NCBI RefSeq assembly: GCF_000590925.1
Contig: NZ_CP004372.1
Coordinates: 3,453,001-3,517,000 of the forward strand
Length of the DNA stretch: 64,000 nucleotides
Reading direction: 5' to 3'
Source: Roseibacterium elongatum DSM 19469
GTDB taxonomy: Bacteria > Pseudomonadota > Alphaproteobacteria > Rhodobacterales > Rhodobacteraceae
A program made the position numbers and the translations under genes. The notes below the pieces were generated by a model. The model saw only the letters and a program-made list of their open reading frames with translations, was not told where the DNA came from and did not search any database. How positions within the stretch are numbered: the stretch's first letter is position 1; each line of letters starts with the position of its first letter. This document shows positions 7,630 through 33,880 of this stretch, one piece after another.

Positions 7630-7632
7630 GGG

Positions 7633-8674
<1,042 letters not shown>

Positions 8675-8697
8675 GTTCGTCCACCCTTGCGCAGATG

Positions 8698-8713
8698 TTG
8701 CATACGTTTTCAA
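8698..8713. promoter_or_regulatory. probable LacI-family operator (left copy)
   Basis: TTGCATACGTTTTCAA, a half-degenerate version of the 16-bp palindrome TTGCAYACGTRTGCAA with a central ACGT. It sits 24 bases upstream of the UgpC-type ATPase start in the divergent region, where it could block transcription of the leftward operon. LacI-family operators characteristically have a central CG in a 14-20-bp palindrome. Assignment to the LacI gene of this cluster is by proximity. Confidence 0.55.
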
Positions 8714-8822
8714 CGACGCTATCGCCAAACCGAAAAGGCAAGCAAGCCATATTTTGCAAGATAATCCAAACACCGTTCGAACGACGAAAATGCTTGTCAG
8801 CCACGGATTTGCTGGCCCAATG

Positions 8823-8838
8823 TTGCACACGTATGCAA
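8823..8838. promoter_or_regulatory. probable LacI-family operator (right copy)
   Basis: TTGCACACGTATGCAA, a nearly perfect 16-bp palindrome (one mismatched pair) matching the element at 8698-8713. The two centres are 125 bp apart, so one site lies near each of the divergent promoters (ATPase leftward, binding protein rightward from 8941). Looping between them is possible. The rest of the 8675-8940 region is AT-richer than its surroundings and holds no credible gene. Confidence 0.6.
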
Positions 8839-8940
8839 GCGCATTGGCGATTCGCCGTGCAGCGAATGCCGATGCCGAGAGGACGACAAGACAAAGGGCG
8901 CATCGCGAACGCGCCGACCACATCAGGGAGCCTTTGTGCC

Positions 8941-10178: not shown

Positions 10179-10189
10179 CCCACCCAAGC

Positions 10190-10217
10190 GGCAGGGCGGC
10201 CCGACGGCCGCCCTGCC
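10190..10217 (+). promoter_or_regulatory. perfect stem-loop between binding-protein and permease genes
   Basis: GGCAGGGCGGCC (10190-10201) and GGCCGCCCTGCC (10206-10217) form a perfect 12-bp stem with a four-base loop, starting 12 bases after the binding-protein stop. There is no T-run, so it is more likely an mRNA-stabilising or partial-attenuation structure than a full terminator. Such hairpins after binding-protein genes are known to raise binding protein over permease levels. Confidence 0.6.
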
Positions 10218-10260
10218 CGCCCCCTCGCCCCGTCCCCCTCCGCGCCGACGCGAGGCCACC

Positions 10261-11289: not shown

Positions 11290-11292
11290 GTC

Positions 11293-12174: not shown

Positions 12175-13199
12175 GGGACGAGGTGACCATCGGGTTCCAA
12201 GCCGAAAAGCAGCTGGTGCGCGACCATTACGCGGCGCTGGCGCGCGCCACGCCCGACACCGTGGCCGCGGTTCTGGCCGAACGCACCGCGCCCGATTGGC
12301 ACTGGCGCGGCATGCACCCGTTCAACACGCTACACGGTGCCGAGGCGGTGGCGCATGGGTTCTGGGGGCCGCTTCTGTCATCCATCGCCCGCATGCAGCG
12401 GCGCGAGGACATCTTCTTTGCCGGCCTGAACGAGATGGACGGGTTCGAGAACTGCTGGGTCGTGTCGATGGGTCACCTGATGGGTCTGTTCGATGCGCCA
12501 TGGCTCGGCATCCGTCCCAGTCGCAAGATCGTCATGTTGCGCTATTGCGAGTTCAACCGTGTCGAGCACGGCAAGATCGTCGAAACCGCTTGTTTCTGTG
12601 ACATCCCCCACCTCATGGCCCAGGCCGGACAAGACCCGTTCGGCCCGGCCACTGCCGCGCATCTGGTGCAACCGGGGCCGTTGGGCCATGGCGGGCTGCT
12701 TCATGACGCCCAACCACCCGAGGCCGGCGCCGCGACGCTGGCCGCCATCAACGCGATGATCGGCGATCTGGGGACATGGGGCCTTGGCCTGCCGCTCGAA
12801 GAGGAACTGGCGCGCACATGGGCTGACGACATGATCTGGTGGGGGCCGCACGGGATCGGCGCGACCTACACGATCGAGCGCTACGCGAAACAGCATTCCG
12901 GCCCGTTCCGCGCCGGGTTTGCCGACAGGGCCAAGACTCGCCACCTCGCCCGTCTTGCCGAAGGTCATTTCGGCGGTTTTTTCGGCTGGCCCAACTTCAC
13001 CGCGCGGCCGACAGGCGGGTTCATGGGCCTGCCCGCCACCGACCGACTGGCCGAGTTCCGGGTGATCGACATCTATCGCCGCGAGGGCGACAAGCTCGCC
13101 GAGAACTGGGTGTTCATCGACATGCTGCACATGCTCAAGACCCAGGGCGTCGATGTGCTGGGGCGTATGGCGAAGATCGCGGGCAGCGCCCCCATCTAA
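12171..13199 (+). CDS. double-domain SnoaL/NTF2-like protein
   Basis: 342 residues, the third protein of this architecture in the cluster. First unit: HWRGMHPFNTLHGAEAVAHG and VMLRYCEFNRVEHGKIVETA. Second unit: DDMIWWGPHGIGATYTIERY, GGFMGLPAT and DKLAENWVFIDMLHML. It shares the 'WWGPHGIG', 'GG-x-MGLP' and 'ENWVxxDxLxM' phrases with the 6580-7629 protein. The start is fixed by an ATGA overlap with the permease. Its stop codon overlaps the stop of the opposing CapA-like gene. Function is unknown. Linkage suggests an enzyme acting on the transported compound. Confidence 0.75.
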   Translation: MRDEVTIGFQAEKQLVRDHYAALARATPDTVAAVLAERTAPDWHWRGMHPFNTLHGAEAVAHGFWGPLLSSIARMQRREDIFFAGLNEMDGFENCWVVSMGHLMGLFDAPWLGIRPSRKIVMLRYCEFNRVEHGKIVETACFCDIPHLMAQAGQDPFGPATAAHLVQPGPLGHGGLLHDAQPPEAGAATLAAINAMIGDLGTWGLGLPLEEELARTWADDMIWWGPHGIGATYTIERYAKQHSGPFRAGFADRAKTRHLARLAEGHFGGFFGWPNFTARPTGGFMGLPATDRLAEFRVIDIYRREGDKLAENWVFIDMLHMLKTQGVDVLGRMAKIAGSAPI

Positions 13200-14407
13200 C
13201 GCGCGCAGGCCAGGTCCTCGGGCGAGATCACGCGCCCGGCCCCCAGAATGCGTTCGGCATGGGCCAGACTGGCCGCCCCGTTGGGGATCGTGGCCGCTGG
13301 CGCCACAGCGACCCCCTGGCTGGCATAGCGTTCGCCACGGGTGACAAGGGCGCGCGGTGGATGCGCGATCACGCGACCGCGCGCATCGCGGGCAAGATCG
13401 AAATACAGGATCGCCCCGGTGCGCCGTGGCAAGGCCCATTGCGACGACAGGAAATTGCCCAGCGAATACGCGACGAAGCCACGCCGGCCATCTGATGCCG
13501 TGATCTCCTCGATCGGTTGCAGGACATGCGGATGCGCCCCGATCACCGCCGCCGCGCCGGCCTCGATCGCGGCGCGCGCAAGGCGCCGTTGCCGCGCATC
13601 CGGGCTGGCGCTGTATTCCTGCCCCCAGTGCGGGGTGAGGATGACCGCGTCGATCTGTGGCCGCACGGAAAGGGCCTCGATCAGACCCGGCACCGACGGA
13701 TTGGATCCATAGCAGAGCAGCGCCTGATCGTGCGGGTTTGGCAGACCGTTCACATCATAGGTGCAGGCCAGAATGGCCACCTTCGCCGCCCCACCGGCCA
13801 TCGAAAGGCGCACCGTCGTGTGCCACGGTCCATCGCTACCCCGCGCGCGCGTGCCGGTGCTGCGCAAACCCGCCTCGGCCAAGGCGGCAAGGGTTCGATC
13901 CACCCCGAGCGGACCCCGATCGAGGGCGTGATTATTGGCGGTCTGGACGACATCGATGCCAATCGACCGAAGCGCCGAGGCGATCGACGGGTGGTAGTTG
14001 AATTGCGGATAGCCGGAATAGACCCGGTCGTCGAACAGGACTTCGGGCGCGACCGCCGCCGCGCGACCGCCGGGCAAAACACCCCGCGCGGCCGGGCCTT
14101 CGAGGTTCACGATGGTCAAATCGCTTCGCGACAGATAGGGGGCGACCGGCGCAAAGGCCGGTGTGAACCCCTCGGGCCGGGCTGTCGCATCCTGCTGGAT
14201 CAGACGATGCAACAGGACATCCCCGGCCGCGGCCACCGTGGCCGCCCCGGCGCGAAACACGCCCACCTCCGATGGGCAGGTGCCCGCGCGTGCAGCGACC
14301 GACGGGCCGCTGGCGTCATTCGGTACGCAGGCCGCCAGGACCAGCGCCAACATGGGGATAAACCTGTGTATCACCTGAGCCGTGGCCTGCATGCCCTTGG
14401 TTTTCAT
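13196..14407 (-). CDS. CapA-family (poly-gamma-glutamate synthesis-like) metallophosphatase lipoprotein
   Basis: 403 residues from ATG 14407, with a lipoprotein signal ending in the lipobox LVLAAC. The calcineurin-like metal motifs of the CapA family are all visible: AAGDVLLHRL (Asp), IVNLEGP, TANNHALDRG, ILTPHWGQEY and IGAHPHVLQP, plus FVAYSLGNFLSSQ. An in-frame ATG at 14455 would add 16 residues ahead of a less convincing signal. It lies 54 bases downstream of the YcaQ-like gene stop and is probably cotranscribed with it. CapA homologues are found far beyond polyglutamate producers and most lack an assigned substrate, so capsule synthesis is not claimed. Confidence 0.85.
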   Translation of the reverse strand: MKTKGMQATAQVIHRFIPMLALVLAACVPNDASGPSVAARAGTCPSEVGVFRAGAATVAAAGDVLLHRLIQQDATARPEGFTPAFAPVAPYLSRSDLTIVNLEGPAARGVLPGGRAAAVAPEVLFDDRVYSGYPQFNYHPSIASALRSIGIDVVQTANNHALDRGPLGVDRTLAALAEAGLRSTGTRARGSDGPWHTTVRLSMAGGAAKVAILACTYDVNGLPNPHDQALLCYGSNPSVPGLIEALSVRPQIDAVILTPHWGQEYSASPDARQRRLARAAIEAGAAAVIGAHPHVLQPIEEITASDGRRGFVAYSLGNFLSSQWALPRRTGAILYFDLARDARGRVIAHPPRALVTRGERYASQGVAVAPAATIPNGAASLAHAERILGAGRVISPEDLACAR

Positions 14408-21332: not shown

Positions 21333-23028
21333 TCAGGCCGTATCGGGCTGCGTTGCGATATCCAGCAAGGCGAGGCGTCGCTCTTGGTCAATCGCGGTCA
21401 AGGCCGCGTCGATCGCGGCCGGCACCTCGTCGGCTAAGGTCACCCGCCGCGCCCATGCCCGGCTTGCCTGAGCCGTCTTGACGAAATCAGGAACGGGGCT
21501 GAGCGCGGTCAACGGCACGGTGTTGGCGCGCGCGGCATACCCGTCGGGGTAAAGCCCCCGGACCGAGGCGCGCACGGCCCCCCACTTCGGCATTGTTCAA
21601 CACGATCACCAGGATGTTCAGGCCCAACGCTTCGGCGATCTGGTGGCACGCGGTCGGGTTGGCGAACATGTAGGACCCGTCGCCGATGGTCGCCACGACC
21701 GTCCGTTCGGGCGCGGCCAGCCTCGCCCCCATGGCGGCCGGAAACGACCAGCCCAGACCACCCGAATGGGGTTCCTGAAACCATGACCGATGACCGCGCC
21801 GCTCCAAAGGGCCCAGGATGGTGCCCAATTCGGAAAAGACGCTCGACGGACGGTCGGCCAAAGCCTCGGACAGGCAGTGACTGACCCAGGCCTTGCTGAT
21901 GCCCCCGTCTCGTCCGGCCTGCGCCTGGGCGTGCCGGCCCGCCAGATCGGCCGCGGCGGCGGCCGCCACCTTCTGGCGCCGCGCCGACAGGGCCACATGG
22001 TCGGCCGGGGCCTGCCCCATCGCCGCGATCAGGGCCGGGATCGTCAGCGCCGTTTCCCCGGCAACCGCGAGGTCGCAGCGAAATGTCCGGGCGGGCGCCC
22101 GCGAGAACAGCGGATCGGGCCCGAGATGGATCACCTTCGCCTCTGGGCTCAGGCAGTGGCGGTCCGGCCACCATGGGGCGAGGCAATCGAGCACGACGAC
22201 GACATCCGCCTCGGCCAGCCAGGGGCCAGGGTCCGGCCCGACATGGCACGGGTGGTCGGTGTCGAGCGCCAGATGCGTCGCCCACCACGAACAAACCGGG
22301 ATACCCCAATCCGCCACCCAGTCGGCAAAGGCGGCAAAGCTGGCCGCATCCCCCGCGCCGCGTTGCGCGATGATCACCGGGCGCGCGGCCCCGGCCAGCA
22401 TCTCGGCGGCGCGGGTTATCGCGGCCGGGTCCGGCGCTGCGCAGGCCGGCACCATCGATGGACCGCCCGCCAGGGTTTCGGGCGCGACGGGCTGGCACAG
22501 GACCTCGCGCGGGAGCGCGAGGTAAACCGGCCCCCTGGGGGTGGAACTGGCGATGGCATGCGCGCGATCCAGCAAGGGCGCGACCTGTTCGGGAAAGCGC
22601 AACTCGTAGTCCCACTTGACGCTTTCGCGCACCAGCGCTGTCTGGTCGAACATCTCCTGCCCCCAGCCGATGGGCACCGTGCGCGCGCCAAAGCGCCCCC
22701 CTTCGGTCACCGGGGTGCGGCCGGACATCAGCAGCATCGGCACGTGGTCGCAGGCGGCGTTGATCGCCCCGATGGCCCCGTTGGCGAGGCCCACATTGGT
22801 GTGCAGCATGACGGCCTGTGCCCGGCCACTCATCAGGTAGTGGCCATGCGCCATGCCCATCGCCGCATGTTCGTGCGGGATGGGAATGGCCTGGGGCAGC
22901 TCGACGCCCTTGGCGGCCGCCTCGGCCAGACCTTCGATGATCGGGGGAAAGTCGGTGCCCGAATTGGCAAAGACATACTCGACGCCCAGGGCCTTGAGCC
23001 GCTGGAAAATGGCGCCCCCCGCCGTCAT
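21333..23028 (-). pseudogene. thiamine-diphosphate-dependent enzyme (acetolactate synthase/benzoylformate decarboxylase-like), frameshifted
   Basis: From ATG 23028 the ORF carries the N-terminal ThDP domain, with the catalytic Glu region HEHAAMGMAHGHYLMSGRAQ. It continues through the central domain (AARPVIIAQRGAGD) and the C-terminal cofactor-binding motif GDGSYMFANPTACHQ...LNILVIVLNNAE. At the G6 run 21578-21583 the frame shifts. Dropping one base continues into GAVRASVRGLYPDGYAARAN and a stop at 21333, giving about 564 residues, normal for the family. A GTG at 23049 overlapping the TRAP stop (GTGA) is an alternative start. The enzyme is coupled to a TRAP transporter, so it probably decarboxylates or condenses an imported 2-oxoacid. 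The substrate is unknown. Confidence 0.85.
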
Positions 23029-23045
23029 GCCGCCCCGTTCTTTCG

Positions 23046-24413
23046 TCACGACAGCGACCTGATGAAGGCGGGCAGCCACAATACCAGCCCCGGAAACGCG
23101 ATCAGCACGGCCACGCGCACCAGTTCCGCGGCGAAAAACGGCATCACGCCCTTGAAGGTGTCCCACATGGGCGTGTCCCGCGCCAAGGCCGAGATGACGA
23201 AGACATTCATGCCCACCGGCGGCGTGATCAGGCCCAGTTCGACCACGATCAACGCCAATATCCCGAACCAGATCTTCAGGTCTTCGGTGCTCATGCCAAA
23301 GCCGGTATTGTCGCCCATCGCGTAGAGCCCGCCGTTCATCTCGACCAGCACGGGCCAGAAGAACGGGATGACCAGCAGGATCATCGACAGCGAATCCATC
23401 AGGCAGCCCAACAGGATCAATGCCAAGAGCAGCAGGATAAGAACCGTCATCGGCTCCAGCCCCGAGGCCCCGATCCATTCCGCCGCGGCCTGGGGCATGC
23501 GGATGCGCGACATGAAGATCTTGACCAGTTCAGCCCCCAGCAGGATCAGGTAGATCATGCCTGTGGTGCTGGCCGTTTCCTTGAGGCTCTCCAGAAGCGC
23601 CCCCAGACCCAGCGACCGTCGCACAAGACCATAGAGCAGCACCAGCGCCACCCCGACCGCCGCCCCCGGCGTGGGATTGTAGAACCCCGCATAGATACCG
23701 CCCAGCACGATGGCGAAAATCCCCAGGACGGGCAGCATCCCCAGGGTGGCGGCGATGAACTCGGCCCGATCCGCCGCGCCGCCCTTGGGGCCGGCCTCGG
23801 GGCGGATCAGCACGACCAGCGCGATGGTGGCGATGAAGAAGATCACGGCCAGCGCGCCGGGGATCATCGCCGCCATGAACAGGGTGACGATGTTGGCCTC
23901 GACGATGATGGCGTAGATGATCAACACGACCGACGGCGGGATCAGGATGCCCAGCACCCCACCCGCGGCCAATGAGCCCGTCGCCAGCGAGCCCGCGTAA
24001 TTGTAGCGCTTGAGTTCCGGCAGGGCGATCTTGCCCATGGTCGAGGCCGTCGCCAGAGACGAGCCCGAGACCGCCCCGAACCCCGCACAGCCGGCGATGG
24101 CGGCCATGGCGGTGCCGCCCCGCGCCCAGCCCAGCCACGCATTCGCCGCCCGGAACAGGGCCTGGCTCATGCCGGTCTTGGCGGCAATGGCCCCCATCAG
24201 CACGAACATCGGCACGACCGACAGGCCGTAATTCGAAAACTGCCCATAGGCCAGTGTCTTGAGCTGGTTCATCACGGTCATCGGACCGTTCATGACCATC
24301 GTGCCGATGCCGCCCACAAGGATCATGGCATAGGCGATGGGCATGCGCATCGCGATCAGCGCGACGAGGGCGGCAAGGCCGATCATCCCCAGCGTGATGG
24401 GATCGAGGCTCAT
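23046..24413 (-). CDS. TRAP transporter large permease subunit (DctM type)
   Basis: 455 residues, about 12 hydrophobic segments, with family signatures such as PIAYAMILVGGIGTMVMNGP, GCAGFGAVSGSSLATASTMG, GGVLGILIPPSVVLIIYAII and LGLITPPVGMNVFVISALA. It is the Na+-coupled transport subunit of a tripartite ATP-independent periplasmic transporter. ATG 24413 overlaps the stop of the small subunit (ATGA). Confidence 0.93.
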   Translation of the reverse strand: MSLDPITLGMIGLAALVALIAMRMPIAYAMILVGGIGTMVMNGPMTVMNQLKTLAYGQFSNYGLSVVPMFVLMGAIAAKTGMSQALFRAANAWLGWARGGTAMAAIAGCAGFGAVSGSSLATASTMGKIALPELKRYNYAGSLATGSLAAGGVLGILIPPSVVLIIYAIIVEANIVTLFMAAMIPGALAVIFFIATIALVVLIRPEAGPKGGAADRAEFIAATLGMLPVLGIFAIVLGGIYAGFYNPTPGAAVGVALVLLYGLVRRSLGLGALLESLKETASTTGMIYLILLGAELVKIFMSRIRMPQAAAEWIGASGLEPMTVLILLLLALILLGCLMDSLSMILLVIPFFWPVLVEMNGGLYAMGDNTGFGMSTEDLKIWFGILALIVVELGLITPPVGMNVFVISALARDTPMWDTFKGVMPFFAAELVRVAVLIAFPGLVLWLPAFIRSLS

Positions 24414-24934
24414 GCTGAGTTGCCCCGCGACGGGGGCCGAAGGCTTTCGAGCAAGGTGATCGCAGAGGCCAGGACCAGCAGCACAAGCGACGGGATCGCG
24501 GCCAGATAGGCCCACCATGTCGGGATGCTAAGGATGGCCGTGACGTAGGAAAACTCACGCTGGCTGCCCATGCCCAGAAAGACCTGGCGCACCAGCAGGA
24601 TCGAAAACAGCAAGGCGACGACCGAGGCCACCAGCGTGAAGATCGAGATGAGGCGCGGCCCGGCCCCCGAGGTGAAGATATCGGCCGAGACATTCGCGCC
24701 GGTCAGTTGGCAATAGGGCAGAAAGGCAAAGGCCGCGATGGCCACGCCCATCTGCGTCAGTTCGAAATCGCCGGGAAAGGGACGACCGATGATGCCGCCC
24801 AAAACGGTCAGGACGTTGACGGCGACGACGGCGAGGATGATCCCCCCGCCAAGGATCGCCCAGGCGGTGATCAAACGTTCCGCCGCACCGGTCCAACCGG
24901 TGCGGCGGGGTGTGTCGTGGATGGGGGTGTCCAT
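24410..24934 (-). CDS. TRAP transporter small permease subunit (DctQ type)
   Basis: 174 residues with four membrane helices (WAILGGGIILAVVAVNVLTV, GVAIAAFAFLPYCQLT, IFTLVASVVALLFSILLVRQ, IPSLVLLVLASAITLLE), the standard DctQ layout including a FELTQ motif after the first helix pair. ATG 24934 overlaps the binding-protein stop by one base (TGATG). A GTG one codon upstream is also in frame. It forms the membrane complex with the large subunit encoded next. Confidence 0.9.
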   Translation of the reverse strand: MDTPIHDTPRRTGWTGAAERLITAWAILGGGIILAVVAVNVLTVLGGIIGRPFPGDFELTQMGVAIAAFAFLPYCQLTGANVSADIFTSGAGPRLISIFTLVASVVALLFSILLVRQVFLGMGSQREFSYVTAILSIPTWWAYLAAIPSLVLLVLASAITLLESLRPPSRGNSA

Positions 24935-25974
24935 CACATCTCGGCGTTTTCGGCGATCAGGCGGCGGGCCTCTTCGACCAGCGCGGCGCCATCAATCCCC
25001 TGCGTACCGAGCTCGTCGATCCAGCGCTGGACCACGGGCTGCAGCGCCTCTTCGAAGGCGGCGGTTTCGTCCTCGGTCAGGGTGACATGCGTATTGCCGG
25101 CCTCGACGGCCATGTTGATGCCGAAATCGTCGGTCCCTCGCCATATGCGGCCGACCTCGCCCCACCAGTCGCGGTTCGACGCCTCGCGGAAGGCGGCCTG
25201 AATATCCTCGGGCAGGCCGTTCCAGCGATCGGCATTCATCGACACTTGGAAGGTGGTCGTGCCGAACCGGGCCTCGTCATGGCCCTCGATCTGGTATTCG
25301 GTCTGCTCCTGGATGCGCAGCGGCGGGATGATCTCGAAGGGGATCAGCGCGCCGTCGACATTGCCGGTCTGCAGCGCCTGCGGCAGGTCGGGCACCGGCA
25401 TCGCCACGGGCTGCGCGCCCAGTTGCTCGATGATCCAGGCCCCGGTGCGGGTCGGGATGCGCAAGCGCAGGCCTTCGAAATCCTCGGGCGTACGCACCTC
25501 GGTATCGACGGTATGCAGGGCCTGACCGGCATGCACATGCAGGAACATCACCTCGACGCCCTGGTAATCGGCCGACAGGTGGTCGTCGAACATGTCATAG
25601 AGCGCGAGGTTCGCGGCCACCGGATCGTTGAGGAAGACAAAGGGCAGTTCCATCACCTCGGATCGCGGAAACAGGCCCGGCGTGTAGCCATTGACCGTCC
25701 AGACCAGATCCACGACGCCGTCACGGGCCTGGCTGATCAGTTCCGGCGGCGCACCCCCCAGCGTCATGGCGGGGAAGATCTCGATCTCGACGCGGCCCTC
25801 CGACAGTTCCTCGACCCGCTCGGCCCAGGGGGCCAGCATCTGGCTATGGGCGGGGGCCTGGGCGCTTAGAAAATGATGCAGGCGAAACGTGTACTCCTGC
25901 GCCGATGCGGCCGAGACCGCCGCGACACTGATGCCGGCGGCCAGAAGACCCGCGGCCAATTTCGATGGGTTCAT
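24934..25974 (-). CDS. TRAP transporter periplasmic substrate-binding protein (DctP type)
   Basis: 346 residues. The signal peptide MNPSKLAAGLLAAGISVAAV ends near SAASAQ|EYTF. The typical DctP features follow: FRLHHFLSAQAPAHSQMLAP, VEIEIFPAMTLGG, and the FEGLRLRIPTR stretch containing the Arg that usually binds a substrate carboxylate. The start at ATG 25974 is supported by AGGGAGGA. It is the first gene of the transporter operon, directly downstream of gntR. The ligand is likely a carboxylate. Proximity to aromatic-acid genes suggests, but does not show, an aromatic or 2-oxo acid. Confidence 0.92.
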   Translation of the reverse strand: MNPSKLAAGLLAAGISVAAVSAASAQEYTFRLHHFLSAQAPAHSQMLAPWAERVEELSEGRVEIEIFPAMTLGGAPPELISQARDGVVDLVWTVNGYTPGLFPRSEVMELPFVFLNDPVAANLALYDMFDDHLSADYQGVEVMFLHVHAGQALHTVDTEVRTPEDFEGLRLRIPTRTGAWIIEQLGAQPVAMPVPDLPQALQTGNVDGALIPFEIIPPLRIQEQTEYQIEGHDEARFGTTTFQVSMNADRWNGLPEDIQAAFREASNRDWWGEVGRIWRGTDDFGINMAVEAGNTHVTLTEDETAAFEEALQPVVQRWIDELGTQGIDGAALVEEARRLIAENAEM

Positions 25975-26011
25975 GGTTTTTTCCTCCCTGGTTGCAACCA
26001 ATGTTCTGGTC

Positions 26012-26767
26012 TTATCCGCCTCCTACCCTCCCGGTATCGGAGACGAGTGACAAGCCCGGAACGGTATCCTGAACCGAACGGCGGGCATCGAGCACGGCCT
26101 TGAGGTTGGCATGCGCCAGGCGCGCGTGTTCGCGGCAGATGGCCTCGGCCCGGCTGCCTTCACGGGCCTCGATGGCCTGCAGGACCGCTCGGTGCTGCTC
26201 TTGCGCGCCAAAGAGCGACTGGCGGATTTCGGACATGGCCGCCTGCGCCTGCAAGAAGGCACTGGGCCGGGCCATCGGCAAGGCCGTGATGCGCTGATAT
26301 TCCCGCATCACCATCTCGCTGCCGCACAGGCCGTTGACCAAGTCGTGAAAGCGGTCGTTCAACGCCGCATAGCGTTCGAAATCGACATCGGCGGCGCTTT
26401 GACCCAGGGCGATGTCGATCTCGTCGGCCACCGATCTGCAGGCGCGCAGATCGGCAACCGGCGCGCCGCGTTCGGCCGCGAGCCGTGCAGCGGTGCCTTC
26501 GATCACGCCGCGCAACTCGATAGCATCGACCACGTCGACGATGCTGAGCGCGCGCACCCGCACCCCGCCCGAGGGCACACGTTCGAGCAGACCTTCCTCG
26601 ACAAGCTGCTGGATCGCCTGTCGCAGAGGTGTGCGCGAAATCCCCAGACGCGCCGACAAGGTCGGCTCGGACAGGCGCTGCCCCGGCGCGACCTCGCCAC
26701 CGAGCACGATCGAGCGCAGCCCCATCAGGGCCTTGTGCGACTGCGCGTTGCGGGCCGCGTCTGCCAT
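26012..26767 (-). CDS. GntR-family transcriptional regulator with FCD domain
   Basis: 251 residues. An N-terminal winged helix (SEPTLSARLGISRTPLRQAI, then LLERVPSGGVRVR) is followed by an all-helical FCD ligand domain. That domain has the metal-ligand-like Asp/His pattern (ERYAALNDRFHDLV, EHRAVLQAI). ATG 26767 is preceded by GGGAG. It is the first gene of the leftward transcript leading into the TRAP transporter and ThDP enzyme, and is probably an autoregulating repressor relieved by a carboxylate metabolite. Candidate operators TGTATACA lie 64 and 158 bases upstream. Confidence 0.9.
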   Translation of the reverse strand: MADAARNAQSHKALMGLRSIVLGGEVAPGQRLSEPTLSARLGISRTPLRQAIQQLVEEGLLERVPSGGVRVRALSIVDVVDAIELRGVIEGTAARLAAERGAPVADLRACRSVADEIDIALGQSAADVDFERYAALNDRFHDLVNGLCGSEMVMREYQRITALPMARPSAFLQAQAAMSEIRQSLFGAQEQHRAVLQAIEAREGSRAEAICREHARLAHANLKAVLDARRSVQDTVPGLSLVSDTGRVGGG

Positions 26768-26830: not shown

Positions 26831-26838
26831 TGTATACA
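26831..26838. promoter_or_regulatory. TGTATACA palindrome, candidate GntR operator
   Basis: A perfect 8-bp palindrome located 64 bases upstream of gntR, in sequence CC-TGTATACA-CC. The identical octamer recurs 94 bp away. GntR/FCD regulators commonly bind short palindromes of the TTGTATACAA kind, and assignment here is by proximity and repetition. Confidence 0.45.
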
Positions 26839-26924: not shown

Positions 26925-26932
26925 TGTATACA
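26925..26932. promoter_or_regulatory. TGTATACA palindrome, candidate GntR operator (second copy)
   Basis: The second perfect copy of the octamer, in context AAAC-TGTATACA-TCC, within the AT-rich centre of the divergent region. It could act on the pobA-side promoter, on the gntR-side promoter, or on both. Confidence 0.45.
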
Positions 26933-27296
26933 TCCTAGAGATCTGAAAAATATGAATAAACTTAGCTTCGATCAAAGTCCGCCAAGGGAAAACCACTGGA
27001 CAGGCCGGGCCAATTCGCCCCCAATGCCCCGGCGAACACAGGCCGCACCGCGCATGGCCGTTCGGAGGGAGGGTCCGGGCGCAATATGGCGCGCGCAGCG
27101 TGGCGGCGCTGACGAAGGGAGGGGACGCACCGATGCCAACCGCTGCCAGTTTTTGCGCGCCTGCAAAGCGCGATGTCGATCAGCCGCGACCGGCGCGGGA
27201 CCGGGTGCTGCCGCGCCGCGCGGCGCTGACGGGCAGCGTCCCGTCCGCCATGGGCGATGCCGGACCTGACAGATGGCAACCGAGGACACGACGCGC

Positions 27297-28475
27297 ATGA
27301 CGACCGGCAAGACCCAAGTGGCGATCATCGGCGGCGGTCCGTCGGGCCTGTTGCTGTCTCAGCTTTTGCATACCCGCGGTATCGACAGCGTCGTTCTGGA
27401 ACGTCGGACCAAGGCCCATGTGCTTGGCCGCATCCGCGCGGGCGTGCTGGAACAGGGGTTGATCGCCCTGATGGACGAGGCCGGCTGCGCCGACCGGCTG
27501 CATGCCGAGGGGTTCGTCCATGACGGGGTGCAACTGTCCTTTGGCGAGGATCGCGTGCATATCAACATCGTCGAGGCCGCCGGCAAACCCGTGGTCGTCT
27601 ATGGGCAGACCGAGGTGACCCGCGACCTCTATGCCGCGCGCGAGGCCGCCGGCGGGCGCCTGATCTTCGAGGCCGAGGATGTCGCGATCCACGACGCGAC
27701 ATCCGATGCCCCGTTCGTCACCTACACCCTTGGCGGCGACAGCCATCGCCTGGACTGTGATTTCGTCGCCGGGTGCGACGGGTTTCACGGCATCAGCCGC
27801 CAGACCATCCCCGCCAGCGCCCGGACCGAGTTCGAAAAACTGTATCCCTTCGGCTGGCTGGGCATCCTGTCGGAAACGCCCCCGGTTGTGCCCGAAATCC
27901 TCTATGCCAATTCGCCGCGCGGCTTTGCCTTGTGTTCGATGCGCAATGCCGCGCTCAGCCGCTACTACATTCAATGTCCCCTGACCGACCGGGTCGAGGA
28001 TTGGAGCGACGACGCCTTTTGGGACGAGTTCAGACGCCGCATCCCATCGGATGTCGCCGCCGATCTGGTCACCGGCCCATCCATCGAGAAATCCATCGCA
28101 CCGCTGCGATCCTTCGTCTGCGAGCCGATGCAGTGGGGGCGGCTGTTCCTGTGCGGGGACGCGGCCCATATCGTGCCGCCCACCGGCGCCAAGGGGCTGA
28201 ACACCGCCGCGTCCGACGTGCATTACCTGTTCCATGCACTTTCCGAGTATTACCAGACCGGCGACAGCGCCGGGATCGAGGGCTATTCCGATCAAGCCCT
28301 TGCGCGGGTCTGGAAAACGCAGCGCTTTTCGTGGTGGCTGACCTCGCTGATGCACCGCACCCCCGAAATGTCGGACTTCGAAGAGCGCATGCAGGTGGCC
28401 GAGATCGCCTTTCTCCGCGAAAATCACGCCGCGCAAACCGCCATGGCGCAGAACTATGTTGGCCTGCCCTATTGA
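27297..28475 (+). CDS. pobA: 4-hydroxybenzoate 3-monooxygenase
   Basis: 392 residues of the class A flavoprotein hydroxylases. The N-terminal FAD fold reads TQVAIIGGGPSGLLLSQLL and is followed by VLERRTKAHVLGRIRAGVLE, the DFVAGCDGFHG motif and GRLFLCGDAAHIVPPTGAKG. The C-terminus ends in AMAQNYVGLPY, the usual PobA tail. The ATG at 27297 has GAGGA ten bases upstream and matches the usual PobA start. An ATG at 27273 lacks a ribosome-binding site. It converts 4-hydroxybenzoate to protocatechuate with NADPH and O2. It is first in an operon with pcaC, pcaH and pcaG. Confidence 0.95.
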   Translation: MTTGKTQVAIIGGGPSGLLLSQLLHTRGIDSVVLERRTKAHVLGRIRAGVLEQGLIALMDEAGCADRLHAEGFVHDGVQLSFGEDRVHINIVEAAGKPVVVYGQTEVTRDLYAAREAAGGRLIFEAEDVAIHDATSDAPFVTYTLGGDSHRLDCDFVAGCDGFHGISRQTIPASARTEFEKLYPFGWLGILSETPPVVPEILYANSPRGFALCSMRNAALSRYYIQCPLTDRVEDWSDDAFWDEFRRRIPSDVAADLVTGPSIEKSIAPLRSFVCEPMQWGRLFLCGDAAHIVPPTGAKGLNTAASDVHYLFHALSEYYQTGDSAGIEGYSDQALARVWKTQRFSWWLTSLMHRTPEMSDFEERMQVAEIAFLRENHAAQTAMAQNYVGLPY

Positions 28476-28485
28476 AGGACGACAG

Positions 28486-28878
28486 ATGAGCAACCGCTAC
28501 GACGCAGGCATGAAGACGCGGCGCGAGGTTCTGGGCGATGCCCATGTCGACCGCGCCGAGGCCGCGAAATCCGTCTTTGACCAACCCTTCCAGGACATGA
28601 TCACCGAAGGGGCCTGGGGCACTCTTTGGGCCGACGACACGATCAGCCGCCGGGATCGGTCGCTGCTGACGCTGGCCCTGTTGGCGGCAACCGGCAATTT
28701 CGCGGAAATCCCGATGCATGTGCGCGCCACCGCCCGGACCGGGGCCACCCCGCCCGAGATCATGCAGGCGTTTTTGCATGTCGCGGTCTATGCGGGCGTG
28801 CCGGCGGCCAACCATGCGATCAAGCTGGCCAAGGAAACATTGGCCGAGATGGAAGAGGAAGACCGCCATGCCCCATGA
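28486..28878 (+). CDS. pcaC: 4-carboxymuconolactone decarboxylase
   Basis: 130 residues, all-helical AhpD-like fold family. It contains [20 protein letters not shown] and the conserved [20 protein letters not shown], with the His region [23 protein letters not shown] 28486 follows AAGGACGAC, ten bases after pobA. It converts gamma-carboxymuconolactone to beta-ketoadipate enol-lactone. It overlaps pcaH by 11 bases. pcaB, pcaD and pcaQ are not in the window, so the pathway is completed elsewhere. Confidence 0.93.
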
Positions 28879-29593
28879 CGCCGAATACATTCAGCGCGAC
28901 CGTACCTGGCACCCCCCGGCTCTTTCCCCCGCCTACAAGACCAGCGTGTCACGCTCGCCCCGCCTGCCGCTGATCAGTATCGAACAGACCGTGTCGGAAA
29001 TCACCGGGCCGCGTTTCGGTCATGGCGATATCGGCGCTTTGGATCATGATTTGCTCAAGAATTACGCCACCACCGGCGACCCAGTGGGCGAGCGGATCAT
29101 CGTGCATGGCCGCGTTCTGGATCAAGAGGGGCGGCCGGTGCCCGAAACGCTGGTCGAGGTCTGGCAGGCCAATGCCGGCGGGCGCTATCGCCACCGCAAG
29201 GACACGTATTTCGCCCCGATCGACCCGAATTTCGGCGGCTGCGGGCGGACGATCACCGATGAAAACGGTTCCTACTTTTTCCGCACCGTCAAACCCGGCG
29301 CCTATCCCTGGCGCAACAGCATCAACGACTGGCGACCGGCGCATATCCATGTCTCGGTCTTTGGCCGGGCCTTTTGCCAACGGCTGATCACGCAACTCTA
29401 TTTCGAGGGGGATCCGCTGATCCCGCGTTGCCCCATCGCGCAATCCATCGCCGATCCGGTGGCCATCGACATGCTGACGGCCAAGCTGGACATGGGCGCG
29501 GCCATCCCGCTCGACAGCCTTGCCTATCGCTTCGACATCGTGCTGCGCGGGCGGCGATCCACCCTGTTCGAAAACCGGCTGGAGGGGAACTGA
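28868..29593 (+). CDS. pcaH: protocatechuate 3,4-dioxygenase beta subunit
   Basis: 241 residues. The four Fe(III) ligands of the family are all present: Tyr107 (GRYRH), Tyr146 (PGAYPW), His159 and His161 ([11 protein letters not shown]), within one position of the Pseudomonas numbering. The starting sequence [19 protein letters not shown] is typical of PcaH. It performs intradiol ring cleavage of protocatechuate to beta-carboxy-cis,cis-muconate with PcaG. The start overlaps pcaC, and its stop overlaps the pcaG ATG (TGATG). Confidence 0.96.
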
Positions 29594-30213
29594 TGGCCAA
29601 CGATCCGACATTGCTGCGCGAAACCCCGTCGCAGACCGCCGGCCCTTATGTCCATATCGGCCTTGCGCCGGGGGCGGCGGGTTTCGACATCTACGAGCAT
29701 GAACTGAGCTGGGACATCGCCGGACCAAATGCTGCGGGCGAGCGCATCCGCGTCGAAGGGCTGGTGATCGACGCCATGGGCAGCCCGGTCAAGGATGTGC
29801 TGCTCGAGGCGTGGCAGGCCAACGCGGCCGGGCACTATCCCCACCCCGAGGGCGGCGGCGAGGTCGAAGACGGGTTTCGCGGCTGGGGCCGTGTCATCAC
29901 CGATTTCGAGACCGGCGAATGGGGCTTTGACACGGTAAAACCGGGCCCGGTGCGTGGCCGGAACGGCACGATGCAGGCCCCCCATATCAGCTTGTGGATC
30001 GTTGCGCGCGGGATCAACCTGGGCCTCAACACGCGGCTCTATTTTTCGGACGAGGCCGAGGCGAATGCGAGCGACCCTGTCCTGAACGGGATCGAGTGGG
30101 AAAACCGCCGCGCCACCCTCATCGCGGAACGGGGCACGCGCGACGGGCAGACCGTGTATCGCTTCAACATCCGCCTGCAAGGCGATGATGAAACGGTGTT
30201 TTTCGACATCTGA
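29593..30213 (+). CDS. pcaG: protocatechuate 3,4-dioxygenase alpha subunit
   Basis: 206 residues beginning [20 protein letters not shown], the characteristic PcaG opening, with LEAWQANAAGHYPHPE and the PHISLWIVARGINLGLNTRL segment. As expected for the alpha subunit it lacks the full set of iron ligands (PHIS in place of HIH). It ends only five bases from the stop of the opposing dehalogenase fusion gene, and no terminator is visible between them. Confidence 0.95.
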   Translation: MANDPTLLRETPSQTAGPYVHIGLAPGAAGFDIYEHELSWDIAGPNAAGERIRVEGLVIDAMGSPVKDVLLEAWQANAAGHYPHPEGGGEVEDGFRGWGRVITDFETGEWGFDTVKPGPVRGRNGTMQAPHISLWIVARGINLGLNTRLYFSDEAEANASDPVLNGIEWENRRATLIAERGTRDGQTVYRFNIRLQGDDETVFFDI

Positions 30214-30218
30214 AGCCG

Positions 30219-33200
30219 CTACAGCTCGACCTCGATCACAGAATTGGGTTCGACCGCACGCGACTGGCACAGGATGATCGTATCCCTGCGCTGCGCCTTG
30301 GACAGCACCCAGTCGCGGTGTTCGACCGCACCCGAGATCAGGCGGCATTTGCACACGCCGCAGATGCCGTCAGAGCATTTCACATCCACTTGCACCCCGT
30401 TTTCGGCCAGCACATCCGTGGCCGATTTCTCGGGCGGGACGGCGAACTCACGCCCGTCCGACAGGCGCAAGGTGAAGGGGTGGTTTTCGTATTCCGGCAC
30501 CTCGGGGACCGAGAAGTATTCCAGATGCCGCGCCTCGTCGGGGAATCCCGCCGTCTCGGCCGCCGCGATGACACTGTCCATGTAGCGATCCGGGCCGCAG
30601 GTATAGACGTGCCAGCCGGGGCGGTAGCCGCGCAGGATCGCCTCGAGGTCGGCGCGCGTGCCCTCGTCACTGATATGCAGATGCACCCGGTCGGCCCAAG
30701 GCATCGCGGCCAGATCCGCCAAGTAAGCCGCGCGATCCCGGCTGGGGACCGAGTAATGCAGCGCGAAATCGCGTCCCAAGGTGTGCAGGCGATGGGCAAA
30801 GGCGATCATCGGTGTCACCCCGATGCCACCGGCCATCAACAAGGTCTTTTCAGCATCCTCGACCAGGTCGAAATGGTTGATCGGTTTCGAAATGAAGACC
30901 TTGCGTCCCTCGGTAAAGATGCGATGCATGAGTTTCGACCCACCCCGCCCCGCCTCCTCGCGCAGCACGCCGATTTCATAGCGCGTGCGATCCGCCGGGT
31001 CACCGGACATGGAATACTGGCGCAGGAACTCGGGCGCGACGACGATGTCGAGATGCGCGCCCGCCGTCCATTCCGGCAGATCACCTCCATCCAGCGCGCG
31101 AAATTCGTATTTCGTGATGTCCTCGGTCATCTGCTCTGTGCGGGCAACCTCGACCCGCAGCACGGGCGCGTCGCCCGGCACGTGATAAGCATGCAAATGA
31201 TCCGTCTCGCCGCGCGACAGCTTCAGCTTGTACTCCTCCGCCGTGACCAAGGCCTGAAACGCCGCGATCCCGGCCTCGCGATCCATCGGAAAGGGATAGG
31301 GCCACGGCCATGGCGCAAGGTTGGCCGGGTAGACGGCCATGGTCTGATCCTCGGGCCGCAGGTCGAGATCGCGCTGCAACCCACGCCGGTTGACCGGGTG
31401 GCGCGTGGGCCGATAGGCGCCATCCTCCTGCAACTCGATATCCCACCACCATTTCTTGGTGTCATTCAGGCCGCCGCGCCCAAGTGCGTCGTCCAGTTTC
31501 GCCAAGGGCCGGGCCAGCGCCGGAATATTGGACGCCGCCCAGCGAAACGGCGCCTCGGCGAACAGTCCCTCGAGGTTCCAGGGGCAGGTCTTCATGCAGC
31601 GCCCGCACATCGCGCCGCCCTCGGTCGTGATGCGGTAGGTGGCACATTTCTGGCTGTCGGATTTCCAGATCTCGTAACCGTTGAACATCAACTTCGGGCC
31701 GGCCGTGATCGCCCCCGAGGGGCATTCGCGGGCGCATTTGTTGCAGGCCTCGCAAAACGCCTGAAGGCCGAAATCGATCGGCGCGTCATGGGCGATGGGC
31801 ATATCGGTCGTCACGACGCCCGATTTCAGGCGCGGCCCAAGGTAGGGGTTCAGGATCACCTCGCCGATGCGGCTGACCTCGCCCAACCCCGACAACAGCA
31901 AAAGCGGCGGCTGCAACACCTCGCCATCCATGACCGTGTGGGCCTTGGCGGAATAGCCCAGGTTTCGGATCTGCTGTGCGATGACACCCCCCAGCAGGGA
32001 AAAGCGCAGATAGGCGCGCATCGACTGCGCGACGCTGATCCAGTCATCGCCCGAGGCGCCCTCCATCGTTTCATAGCCCTGATCGATGATCATGCTGATG
32101 GCCTGATCGTGGGCCGGGTCGATCGGCGCGCCTGTCGCGTCATGGGAATACCATGTCCAGTCCGGGCAGCGCGACAGGCCCACCGCATCGACCCCGAGGA
32201 AATGGCTGGCGGCCTTGAGGTTCTGCGCATTGCGCACCGCGTCCGTCGGGCGCGCGCCCGCGGGGTTTGGCGCACCGTCCTGCAACAACACGAACGCCCC
32301 CAAGGCGCGACGCTGCGCCGAGGAGGGGGCCGATTTTCGCGCGTAATGCCCGCCCTTGGCCCCGTCCTGCACCGTTTTGCCCATGTCGCCGAACTGCGCG
32401 CGGGCGAACATGTCGGTGCGCTTGGGCACGCGGGGCACGCGGGCTTCGTCGATATGGGTGGTCGGGGCGTCCACGCGCCGCAACCGTTCGAACGGGTGTG
32501 CGCCCTGCACGAAACCACGCCTGGCAAACGGGTCGCGAGTGAGCGCGGATCTGGCGGCACGGGTTCCCAGCCACCAGGCCGGGCCCCTTGTTTCCGCCCA
32601 GGGCTGCTGCGCCCAAGGGGCGAGGGGCGCATCAACCTGCAGATCCAGGGTTGTCGTCACGGCGGCAAGGCCGAACCCGGCCCCGATCCAGGGCGCGCTC
32701 AGTTCTCCGTCCTCGACCGTGGTCAGACCTGCGGCCACCGCCAGACGGTTCAGGCAGACATCGCTGGCAGTGGCCGAGTGGCTTTTTGCATCCCACCCCA
32801 ACAGCCGAATGTAGGTTGCAATGACACAAGCGGTCTCATTGGCCCGCATCGCCGCGCTGTGGCGTTCGGCCCCGGCCAGCCACTCGGTGCCCGGCTCGTC
32901 GCGGCGGGGGGGACGCGGGGCCTGGTACAGGAAGACGATGGCATGGCTGTGCCCGCCGATCCCCGAGGCGGGCGCCTCCATCGACTCCTTGAGGTCGGCC
33001 ATGATCACATCGATCCCGGAGGCCAGCGTCTTGGTCTGGCGGCGGCGCAGGTCGCGGGCCAGACGATCAATGGCGGGGTTGGCGATCGGCTCGGGCAACT
33101 GCGCGCTGTCGGGCAGGCGGCAGATGCCCACCATGGCGGCATCGTTGAAATAGCCGAAGGCCTTGATGTGATCGGCCCGGGCGGCCGGATCGTCGGGGAT

Positions 33201-33431
33201 CGTGGCGCGGGCCTTGTTGACGAACCCGTCGCGGATCGCATCCAGCATGGCCTGATGCCCCGCCATCGCGTTGACCAGCGCCTCGGGCCGCTCGGGGCAG
33301 TCGAAAGGCAGGCCGCACATGGTCGGCACCTGCGACAGATCGACGGCAACGAGGCGACGCAGCCGCTCGGTCGGGTAGGGGCCCAGATGAACCGGCCGGT
33401 TCCTGTTCGAGAAAAAACGCAGCCCCATCAC
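30219..33431 (-). CDS. self-sufficient reductive dehalogenase: corrinoid RdhA domain fused to FMN/NAD/2Fe-2S reductase
   Basis: 1070 residues. Residues 1 to about 690 are an RdhA-type module that opens FFSNRNRPVHLGPYPTERL and has no Tat signal. Its two 4Fe-4S clusters are marked by C560-x2-C563-x2-C566-x3-C570-P and by C596 with C609-x2-C612-x3-C616-P. Residues about 755-985 form a ferredoxin-reductase-like domain with RQYSMSGDP (flavin) and GGIGVTPM (NAD). Residues about 985-1070 hold a plant-type 2Fe-2S domain (C1019, C1024, C1027, C1055). The same order is known from the aerobic 3,5-dibromo-4-hydroxybenzoate dehalogenase BhbA. Together with pobA-pcaCHG on the other strand, this predicts NAD(P)H-driven removal of halogen from hydroxybenzoates in the cytoplasm. 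Bound cobalamin and substrate are inferred. It has no membrane anchor RdhB, so it is catabolic rather than respiratory. Confidence 0.9.
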   Translation of the reverse strand: MMGLRFFSNRNRPVHLGPYPTERLRRLVAVDLSQVPTMCGLPFDCPERPEALVNAMAGHQAMLDAIRDGFVNKARATIPDDPAARADHIKAFGYFNDAAMVGICRLPDSAQLPEPIANPAIDRLARDLRRRQTKTLASGIDVIMADLKESMEAPASGIGGHSHAIVFLYQAPRPPRRDEPGTEWLAGAERHSAAMRANETACVIATYIRLLGWDAKSHSATASDVCLNRLAVAAGLTTVEDGELSAPWIGAGFGLAAVTTTLDLQVDAPLAPWAQQPWAETRGPAWWLGTRAARSALTRDPFARRGFVQGAHPFERLRRVDAPTTHIDEARVPRVPKRTDMFARAQFGDMGKTVQDGAKGGHYARKSAPSSAQRRALGAFVLLQDGAPNPAGARPTDAVRNAQNLKAASHFLGVDAVGLSRCPDWTWYSHDATGAPIDPAHDQAISMIIDQGYETMEGASGDDWISVAQSMRAYLRFSLLGGVIAQQIRNLGYSAKAHTVMDGEVLQPPLLLLSGLGEVSRIGEVILNPYLGPRLKSGVVTTDMPIAHDAPIDFGLQAFCEACNKCARECPSGAITAGPKLMFNGYEIWKSDSQKCATYRITTEGGAMCGRCMKTCPWNLEGLFAEAPFRWAASNIPALARPLAKLDDALGRGGLNDTKKWWWDIELQEDGAYRPTRHPVNRRGLQRDLDLRPEDQTMAVYPANLAPWPWPYPFPMDREAGIAAFQALVTAEEYKLKLSRGETDHLHAYHVPGDAPVLRVEVARTEQMTEDITKYEFRALDGGDLPEWTAGAHLDIVVAPEFLRQYSMSGDPADRTRYEIGVLREEAGRGGSKLMHRIFTEGRKVFISKPINHFDLVEDAEKTLLMAGGIGVTPMIAFAHRLHTLGRDFALHYSVPSRDRAAYLADLAAMPWADRVHLHISDEGTRADLEAILRGYRPGWHVYTCGPDRYMDSVIAAAETAGFPDEARHLEYFSVPEVPEYENHPFTLRLSDGREFAVPPEKSATDVLAENGVQVDVKCSDGICGVCKCRLISGAVEHRDWVLSKAQRRDTIILCQSRAVEPNSVIEVEL

Positions 33432-33575
33432 ACCTGCCCCACCGCCTGTCAGGAGACCACGTTAGGACAGACCCCGCCGCACCGCCAGAGACCAGGCGCA
33501 CGCGCTCGGCATAGGGTCCGAGCGATCGGGTCGGCTTGACGCGGCACCGGCCATCGCATAGATCACCCGTGCTGA

Positions 33576-33650
<75 letters not shown>

Positions 33651-33849
33651 ACCGCACCCCCATCTCACGGCAGACCGCATGCGGCTGCGCCGGCGGCGCA
33701 GTTCTGTGTCAGGTCGGGCCGGATCGCAGAGCGCCACCGAATTGCACGGGAATCGCCCTTTTCTTGCCGTGGCGGTCCGTCATCGTCATGTGTGCGGGCG
33801 ACGTGGTGCCCTCCCTGCCGCGCGGTCCACTCTCTCCGAAAGACGACTG

Positions 33850-33880
33850 GCCGCATCCCCGGATGCGGCTTTCTTTTTCG
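33850..33880 (+). terminator. rho-independent terminator of uncertain owner
   Basis: GCCGCATCC (33850-33858) and GGATGCGGC (33861-33869) form a perfect 9-bp stem with a two-base loop, followed by TTTCTTTTTC on the plus strand. The nearest upstream plus-strand gene is tRNA-Gly, which ended 200 bases earlier. It therefore ends either a long tRNA precursor or an unrecognised small RNA in 33651-33850. Confidence 0.75.

Follow-up and report, generated by a model that had tools for sequence, protein, structure and literature searches.

Catabolic reductive dehalogenases (RdhA) have been sorted into fused and truncated kinds, in a published tree that includes Ruegeria pomeroyi and Pseudovibrio (PMC10463259). 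BhbA of Comamonas sp. 7D-2 has an RdhA part with a C-terminal reductase, is encoded in a catabolic cluster and debrominates 3,5-dibromo-4-hydroxybenzoate (PMC10463259, PMC13101508), and putative bhbA homologues are reported to be widespread in the Roseobacter clade (PMC13101508). JtRdhA of Jhaorihella thermophila is described as removing bromine and iodine from ortho-halophenols with NADPH, air included, and as turning over 3,5-dibromo- and 3-bromo-4-hydroxybenzoate with the same reductant; its best substrates were 3,5-dibromo-4-hydroxybenzoate and 3-bromo-4-hydroxyphenylacetate (PMC10463259). NpRdhA of Nitratireductor pacificus, the protein described with a vestigial duplicated cobalamin-binding domain, has no fused reductase and, unlike JtRdhA, reduces chlorinated compounds (PMC10463259). 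Here we describe a gene of this group, rdhA, from Roseibacterium elongatum DSM 19469. It lies in a stretch of 64,000 nucleotides (contig NZ_CP004372.1, positions 3,453,001 to 3,517,000; hereafter the window, in whose coordinates positions are given) next to the genes pobA, pcaC, pcaH and pcaG, and its product is probably a debrominase that feeds the 4-hydroxybenzoate route. The enzyme type is already characterised, and its recurrent pairing with hydroxybenzoate genes is the new detail.

Results

The family, domains, catalytic residues and gene layout of rdhA, two cobalamin genes and the recurrent linkage to pobA were all obtained by computation. The open reading frame encodes 1070 residues from a GTG codon or 1069 from the ATG that immediately follows; the database copy (P0002) has 1069, and the ATG is probably the true start. 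Homologues numbered 3639 at E≤1e-3 among 8000 scored candidates. The reductive-dehalogenase part, which extends to about residue 735, scores 190.1 bits with TIGR02486 (curated cut-off 160.35) and matches NpRdhA (PDB 4ras) with E=7e-157, and the reductase part (about residues 752-1070) matches phthalate dioxygenase reductase (PDOR; 2pia) over residues 752-1066 with E=4e-54. Both 4Fe-4S motifs (C560-C563-C566-C570 and C596-C609-C612-C616) are intact, as are the reductase motifs RQYSM at 804, GGIGVTP at 868 and the 2Fe-2S cysteines C1019-C1024-C1027-C1055. A first-pass annotation, made from the sequence of the window, had proposed a fusion with two 4Fe-4S motifs and an NAD/flavin/2Fe-2S chain, five bases from pcaG on the opposite strand and in the order known from BhbA, and the open reading frame, the profile and structure matches and the intact motif residues bear this out, with the RdhA part first and the reductase part second. 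The likeness to BhbA is to its published description.

Inspection by eye of residues 1-60, which hold one RR (at 25) and on which no signal predictor was run, showed no twin-arginine (Tat) signal, and no RdhB anchor was seen on inspection of the upstream neighbours, tRNA-Gly and ubiG, where no search with an rdhB model was made. Both absences had been claimed before and agree with inspection. A respiratory RdhA, with its Tat signal and RdhB anchor, was rejected on the same inspection, and a truncated catabolic RdhA of the NpRdhA kind is ruled out by the fused reductase part. Judged by its sequence, RdhA is a self-sufficient catabolic RdhA-PDOR fusion of the BhbA/JtRdhA kind, a type already known.

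RdhA aligns with NpRdhA (PDB 4ras, 6zxu) over NpRdhA residues 1-103 and 112-703, with 44% identity over 667 aligned residues; the fold itself is unconfirmed, the AlphaFold model being poor. The catalytic set Ser470, Tyr474, Lys536 and Arg600 is intact and invariant in 26 aligned sequences, its own included. NpRdhA residues S422, M423, Y426, K488, R552 and F291 correspond to S470, M471, Y474, K536, R600 and F342 here, and all are kept; the Tyr/Lys/Arg check that had been proposed thus found Y474, K536 and R600 in place. In NpRdhA, K488, R552 and S422 are reported to bind the substrate hydroxyl, Y426 to donate the proton and A419 to contribute to the pocket for the second bromine (PMC7565698). 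Four pocket changes relative to NpRdhA (F290M, F310Y, A419V and N452V) are common to RdhA and to a J. thermophila protein (P0084) that is 75% identical over 100% of the query and that, from its organism name, is taken to be the characterised JtRdhA of PMC10463259. JtRdhA and RdhA have the same length, fusion and catalytic residues and a nearly identical pocket; position 311 (NpRdhA numbering) is Pro in NpRdhA, Val in JtRdhA and Ala here. Because of the 75% identity and the nearly identical pocket, RdhA most likely shares the halogen preference of JtRdhA, for which no dechlorination of any chlorinated compound tested is reported, such compounds binding and inhibiting the enzyme (PMC10463259). 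The chlorinated hydroxybenzoates named as substrates in the first-pass annotation should therefore read brominated or iodinated ones. An open reading frame of 1073 residues lies antisense to rdhA (30318-33539, + strand) and is probably an effect of the high G+C (0.6575).

The genes pobA, pcaC, pcaH and pcaG overlap in an operon-like manner from 27273 to 30213 and point toward rdhA, and 5 bases separate the stop codons of the convergent pcaG and rdhA (Table 1). This run had been called a complete operon; the four genes do look like an operon, but the pathway is not complete within it, as pcaB and pcaD lie outside. Roseobacter clusters for 4-hydroxybenzoate and the beta-ketoadipate pathway are described with pobA, pcaC, pcaH, pcaG and a nearby tripartite ATP-independent periplasmic (TRAP) transporter, as here, but with pcaD in the operon and pcaQ leading it, whereas here pcaD is distant, a GntR-type gene stands in front and rdhA is added (PMC12442348). 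The plasmid-borne bromoxynil cluster of BhbA is reported to lead to 4-carboxy-2-hydroxymuconate-6-semialdehyde, in contrast to the 3,4-cleavage route of pcaHG (PMC10463259). The tRNA-Gly (TCC; 33576-33650, + strand) lies directly upstream of rdhA, and a terminator-like hairpin occupies 33849-33870; a tRNA was found within 1 kb of rdhA in 4 of 140 rdhA neighbourhoods. A genomic island at this tRNA was rejected: rdhA sits on the 5' side of the tRNA and the G+C is even. It was also considered whether rdhA had entered an ancestral pcaG-ubiG junction, and no simple empty site was seen. In G235, the second genome of the genus in the sample, the segment after pcaG, which we take to be an isocitrate-dehydrogenase-like end, has no counterpart in the window.

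The survey of the family Rhodobacteraceae covered 394 genomes, about one per genus, with thresholds of E≤1e-50 for rdhA and E≤1e-80 for pobA. By these thresholds rdhA is present in 151 genomes and pobA in 264; counted by hand, pobA is found in 120 of the 151 rdhA genomes and in 144 of the 243 others (odds ratio 2.7, P=2e-5). Neighbourhoods of rdhA were covered in 140 of the 150 other rdhA genomes, some of them ending at contig ends. Four of the 140, all from other genera, have pobA within about 8 kb of rdhA, and the layouts differ: divergent with 347 bp between (L118), convergent with 247 bp (L136), and in tandem with 93 bp (L179) or 12 bp between open reading frames (L183). Random placement, under a null that assumes 4-Mb genomes and takes no account of phylogeny, of hot spots of rearrangement or of contig ends, expects 0.48 cases within 8 kb (4 observed, Poisson P=0.0015) and 0.021 with gaps of at most 350 bp (4 observed, P=8e-9), the 350-bp limit having been chosen post hoc, once the gaps were known. 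Control genes from the window met the same distance limit in 1 of 560 gene-locus pairs (Fisher P=0.0065); they were ubiG and three that we take to be isoprenylcysteine-methyltransferase-like, SRAP-like and 5'-nucleotidase-like.

Other arrangements were found as well. The pobA gene lies about 10 kb from rdhA in G089 and G108, by coordinates among the matches listed, and pcaC (66% identity) lies 20 bp upstream of rdhA on the same strand in 1 of the 140 neighbourhoods (L171, the same stretch as L040); weaker pcaC-like matches of 32 and 35% (L172, L199) were left uncounted. A second set of 80 loci overlapped in part with the genomes of the first. At L033 rdhA and pobA form a tandem about 50 bp apart, with a pobA that is 54% identical and above the TIGR02360 cut-off; at L036 rdhA is convergent with a run of 3-oxoadipate:acetyl-CoA acetyltransferase, pcaG, pcaH and pcaC; and at L020 pobA lies 5.6 kb downstream of rdhA. 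Relatives of the L036 acetyltransferase, about 85% identical, occur at L019, L135 and L154, at distances from rdhA of about 0.2-5 kb when L036 is included.

A FastTree phylogeny of 144 rdhA sequences was labelled for linkage (11 rows with pobA, pca or TRAP genes nearby); L011, L020, L033 and L036 had been put into the tree for being linked, which makes it unfit for frequencies. The linked label requires 11 changes, at least 7 of them forced by well-supported branches, and shuffled labels require 10.7 on average. The label is therefore not clustered on the tree, and rdhA linkage was gained, or lost, several times. The repeated nearness of rdhA and pobA in differing layouts, including tandems of 12-93 bp, supports a functional link in those genera. 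The tie between rdhA and the pobA/pca genes that had been proposed from the window thus recurs elsewhere, but it is not obligatory.

A MarR-type family was noticed in 21 of 141 rdhA loci, within 1.2 kb in 20 and on the same strand in 16 (15 of 140 by direct search). Among more distant rdhA genes, a MarR gene stands immediately upstream at L225 and at 14 other loci of L113-L252, and is co-stranded with rdhA in the 14 loci listed. A MarR-type regulator was considered for the rdhA of the window, and none is present in its upstream region.

The GntR/FCD-family gene is divergent from pobA, and both exact copies of the palindrome TGTATACA in the window sit in the 506-bp gntR-pobA gap. Control of rdhA by this putative operator was ruled against, as TGTATACA is missing upstream of rdhA. 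Because the putative GntR sites stand only before pobA and the convergent rdhA has its own upstream region, the co-regulation of rdhA and pobA suggested in the first-pass annotation is unsupported. Five copies of TGTATACA occur in 4.34 Mb of fetched loci, and two of the five are at L058 (5903 and 6208), one at the start of and one inside an oxygenase open reading frame followed by a GntR gene (52% identity); none was seen at L175, L011, L118, L136, L183 or L253. It is possible that such pairs near 52%-identical GntR/FCD genes are operators of this regulator. L058, from Hongsoonwoonella zoysiae, reads oxygenase, gntR, reductase, dctP and rdhA over 5882-13222. We take the oxygenase to be Rieske-type; a reading of the run as vanAB-rdhA was rejected, the oxygenase scoring 95.7 bits with an NCBIfam sterol monooxygenase model whose cut-off is 600. 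This run suggests another p-hydroxy aromatic acid as substrate.

Beyond the regulator gene lie the TRAP genes dctP, dctQ and dctM. Among the rows listed, G089, G125 and G350 each have a dctP orthologue (67% identity) about 1.2 kb from pobA, and the layout of TRAP genes, regulator and pobA recurs there; G089 has rdhA, and G125 and G350 are without an rdhA match. The gene between dctP and pobA in G125 is PcaQ (TIGR02424, 411 bits, cut-off 303.8). Relatives of dctQ (50-59% identity) stand between dctP and dctM at L011, L175, L258 and L259, and in Roseibium aquae (L011) TRAP genes of 50-75% identity come directly after rdhA, convergent with it. A study of 4-hydroxybenzoate in Roseovarius nubinhibens reports that a TRAP system located 159 bp ahead of the pca cluster is upregulated (PMC12442348). 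The nearness of dctP to pobA, the layout in R. aquae and the R. nubinhibens transporter together suggest that dctPQM of the window is probably an importer of 4-hydroxybenzoate-like acids, halogenated or not. A general association of TRAP systems with rdhA was rejected: dctM-like matches lie near rdhA in 12 of 140 neighbourhoods, but TRAP systems are numerous in these genomes, and the comparison was therefore restricted to close orthologues. Across genomes, dctP orthologues co-occur with rdhA at chance level (24 of 151 vs 33 of 243, P=0.31).

Table 1. Position and assignment of genes and putative operators at the rdhA locus (window coordinates)
Feature	Position	Strand	Basis
dctM, TRAP large membrane subunit	23046..24518	-	PF06808
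dctQ, TRAP small membrane subunit	24410..24937	-	place between dctP and dctM
dctP, TRAP solute-binding protein	24934..26001	-	PF03480
GntR/FCD-family regulator, divergent from pobA	26012..26767	-	PF00392, PF07729
TGTATACA palindrome, putative GntR operator 1	26831..26838		2 in 64-kb window, 0.05 expected
TGTATACA palindrome, putative GntR operator 2	26925..26932		2 in 64-kb window, 0.05 expected
pobA, 4-hydroxybenzoate 3-monooxygenase	27273..28475 (possible start 27297)	+	TIGR02360, 667.7 bits, cut-off 538.7
pcaC, 4-carboxymuconolactone decarboxylase	28456..28878	+	TIGR02425, 183.7 bits, cut-off 155.7
pcaH, protocatechuate 3,4-dioxygenase beta subunit	28868..29593	+	PF00775, PF12391 (PCDO_beta_N)
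pcaG, protocatechuate 3,4-dioxygenase alpha subunit	29593..30213	+	TIGR02423, 248.4 bits, cut-off 126.25
rdhA, RdhA-reductase fusion	30219..33431	-	TIGR02486, 4ras and 2pia matches, catalytic and cluster residues

The genome itself (G000) is one contig of 3,555,109 bases with a single rdhA, and the only further match to the rdhA query is to its reductase part (38% identical). CobN was found at 884.9 bits (with neighbours in the frame; cut-off 822.05) and CobS above its cut-off, so the search for cobalamin genes that had been proposed gave a positive answer, and cobalamin is probably made via the aerobic route. By coordinates, pcaD (2347812-2348552, over cut-off) lies about 1.1 Mb from pobA-pcaCHG. 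The pcaB-like gene adjoining it (G000:C1:2346747-2347755) is split over two frames, in pieces that score 174.5 and 104.1 bits, both below the cut-off of 355.75, and may reflect a sequencing error or a broken gene. The search outside the operon covered pcaD and pcaB; with the latter in two frames, a complete pathway is unproven.

A sulfatase-like gene is another recurrent neighbour of rdhA. At L033, a Nitratireductor assembly, the run reads sulfatase, short-chain dehydrogenase (SDR), rdhA and pobA. The nearest solved structure to the sulfatase-like protein (L033:333-1976) is 4upl, a 'sulfatase family protein' (E=3e-229), and NCBIfam models for arylsulfatases and phosphoric/sulfuric ester hydrolases all match below their cut-offs. 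The common sulfatase motif is C-x-(P/A)-S-R. No such motif was found in the L033 protein, which reads CGSSR at the site (CGASR in the L220 relative), and the sulfatase label is thus insecure. The gene occurs in 182 of the 394 genomes, 112 of the 151 with rdhA and 70 of the 243 without (odds ratio 7.1, P=6e-19), and shared habitat may explain this co-occurrence. In 6 of 140 neighbourhoods (L123, L144, L139, L220, L205, L145) a relative with 62-81% identity is found less than 8 kb from rdhA, where chance, at an assumed 1.25 copies per genome, gives 0.56 (P=3e-5); a seventh match (L184, 54%, 7.8 kb) was not counted. The gene is upstream of rdhA on the same strand at L139 (183 bp) and L205 (5 bp), and on the opposite strand at L145. 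An SDR lies between the sulfatase-like gene and rdhA at L033, L123 and L144, and that of L033 reaches 229.3 bits with a model for coniferyl-alcohol dehydrogenase and so stays below the cut-off of 242. A search of the R. elongatum genome gave no match to this sulfatase. In a genome without an rdhA match, a member of the same sulfatase-like family is convergent with pobA at about 95 bp (G084:C11:73070-75956).

Discussion

From these features we infer the activity, halogen preference, substrate, electron path, transport and physiology of the rdhA system. The reading that we consider likely is that RdhA debrominates aromatic acids for the 4-hydroxybenzoate route. RdhA would be a cytoplasmic, NAD(P)H-driven catabolic reductive dehalogenase, in which electrons pass from NAD(P)H to flavin and the 2Fe-2S cluster and then, one at a time, via the two 4Fe-4S clusters to base-off cobalamin, whose cobalt would be ligated by the halogen of the substrate. 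The phenol hydroxyl would be held by Lys536, Arg600 and Ser470, and the proton would come from Tyr474. In the cell the enzyme would likely act on 4-hydroxybenzoates, or on closely related p-hydroxy aromatic acids, that carry bromine or iodine next to the hydroxyl; the acid would probably be brought in by the adjacent TRAP transporter. PobA would then hydroxylate the resulting 4-hydroxybenzoate before PcaHG and PcaC open and process the ring, and genes in other parts of the genome presumably supply the remaining steps. That oxygen-dependent steps can accompany a cobalamin enzyme, as the first-pass annotation also put forward, is already known from BhbA, and JtRdhA is reported to work in air (PMC10463259). 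The enzyme class debrominates in air with NADPH as sole reductant, and an rdhA placed beside a route into central metabolism offers a direct, genetically simple test of the growth of Rhodobacteraceae on bromo-hydroxybenzoates.

Several observations weigh against this reading. No pobA was found within about 8 kb of rdhA in 136 of the 140 neighbourhoods, and neither pcaH nor pcaG in any of the 140. Co-occurrence of rdhA and pobA alone is weak evidence, because a choline sulfatase control also co-occurs with rdhA (127 of 151 genomes vs 169 of 243; odds ratio 2.3, P=7e-4), and the simplifications of the random-placement null count in the same direction. G235 has pobA-pcaCHG and no rdhA match. The pcaB-like gene of R. 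elongatum is split, as described above. The Pfam Dehalogenase model PF13486 does not match RdhA; as a probe it was uninformative, with 0 matches in the R. elongatum genome and 0 in 14 control genomes. The AlphaFold model, built from 26 close sequences, has a mean pLDDT (predicted local distance difference test) of 63.5 and was not used. The lack of a pobA match in 31 of the 151 rdhA genomes, the absence of TGTATACA before rdhA and the equally fast action of JtRdhA on 3-bromo-4-hydroxyphenylacetate (PMC10463259) weigh on the same side.

One alternative is that the same enzyme has bromo- or iodo-4-hydroxyphenylacetate or a halotyrosine breakdown product as its natural substrate and that pob-pca serves ordinary 4-hydroxybenzoate. 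JtRdhA is reported to act on 3-bromo-4-hydroxyphenylacetate at 99% of its best rate (PMC10463259), a 75%-identical relative from Thalassovita gelatinovora carries the source name 3-chloro-4-hydroxyphenylacetate reductive dehalogenase precursor, and 31 of the 151 rdhA genomes have no pobA match. The adjacency of rdhA to pobA or pca genes recurs in several genera and layouts, however, and, with no search aimed at 4-hydroxyphenylacetate genes beside rdhA, we regard this alternative as unlikely. Equally improbable in our view is a broad detoxification of bromo- and iodophenols such as 2,4,6-trihalophenols, with the position beside pcaG incidental. That pobA lies within 350 bp of rdhA in four other genera, against the 0.021 expected, argues against an incidental position, even though rdhA contexts differ widely (no neighbour family occurs in more than 28 of 141 loci) and TGTATACA is absent before rdhA in the window. 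JtRdhA is described as accepting 2,6-dibromophenol, 2-iodophenol, 2,4,6-triiodophenol and tetrabromobisphenol A (PMC10463259), which speaks for this alternative; the retention of Arg600, Lys536 and Ser470 speaks against it, but these hydroxyl binders do not in themselves call for a carboxylate (PMC7565698). A dechlorinating RdhA, like NpRdhA rather than JtRdhA, is very unlikely: all three enzymes have the same catalytic polar residues and Fisher et al. leave undecided whether fused enzymes are limited to brominated compounds (PMC10463259), but the pocket substitutions here match JtRdhA and not NpRdhA, and JtRdhA is reported to be inhibited by the chlorinated compounds tested, with none dechlorinated (PMC10463259).

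A wider version of the debromination reading can be offered tentatively and remains doubtful. In Rhodobacteraceae and their neighbours, RdhA-PDOR may be an exchangeable debromination cartridge, found repeatedly beside 4-hydroxybenzoate/beta-ketoadipate genes and elsewhere beside the sulfatase-like gene and an SDR that resembles aromatic-alcohol dehydrogenases. In air, sulfated algal bromophenols would then lose their sulfate groups, be oxidised to bromo-4-hydroxybenzoates, be debrominated and finally be mineralised. Lanosol-4,7-disulfate is described as a major metabolite of red algae (PMC9322897), and 3,5-dibromo-4-hydroxybenzaldehyde is listed among algal bromophenols (PMC3148503). If this is true, the genome of the window would represent the form without the sulfatase. 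The rdhA-pobA, rdhA-pca and rdhA-sulfatase neighbourhoods indicate testable substrates for a gene present in 151 of 394 genomes; in the literature searched, where subscription journals were thinly covered, no description of rdhA-pobA or rdhA-sulfatase neighbourhoods in Rhodobacteraceae was found.

Other features of the window

A gene for a thiamine-diphosphate enzyme (21487-23040) directly follows dctM and scores 569.8 bits with NF006203 (cut-off 456); the profile match ends at 490 of 571, and the end of the protein appears to be out of frame. Three proteins of 333-349 residues (4573-5574, 6580-7629 and 12171-13199) have SnoaL-like matches in both or different halves, and a sugar-type ABC permease gene lies at 10126-11289.

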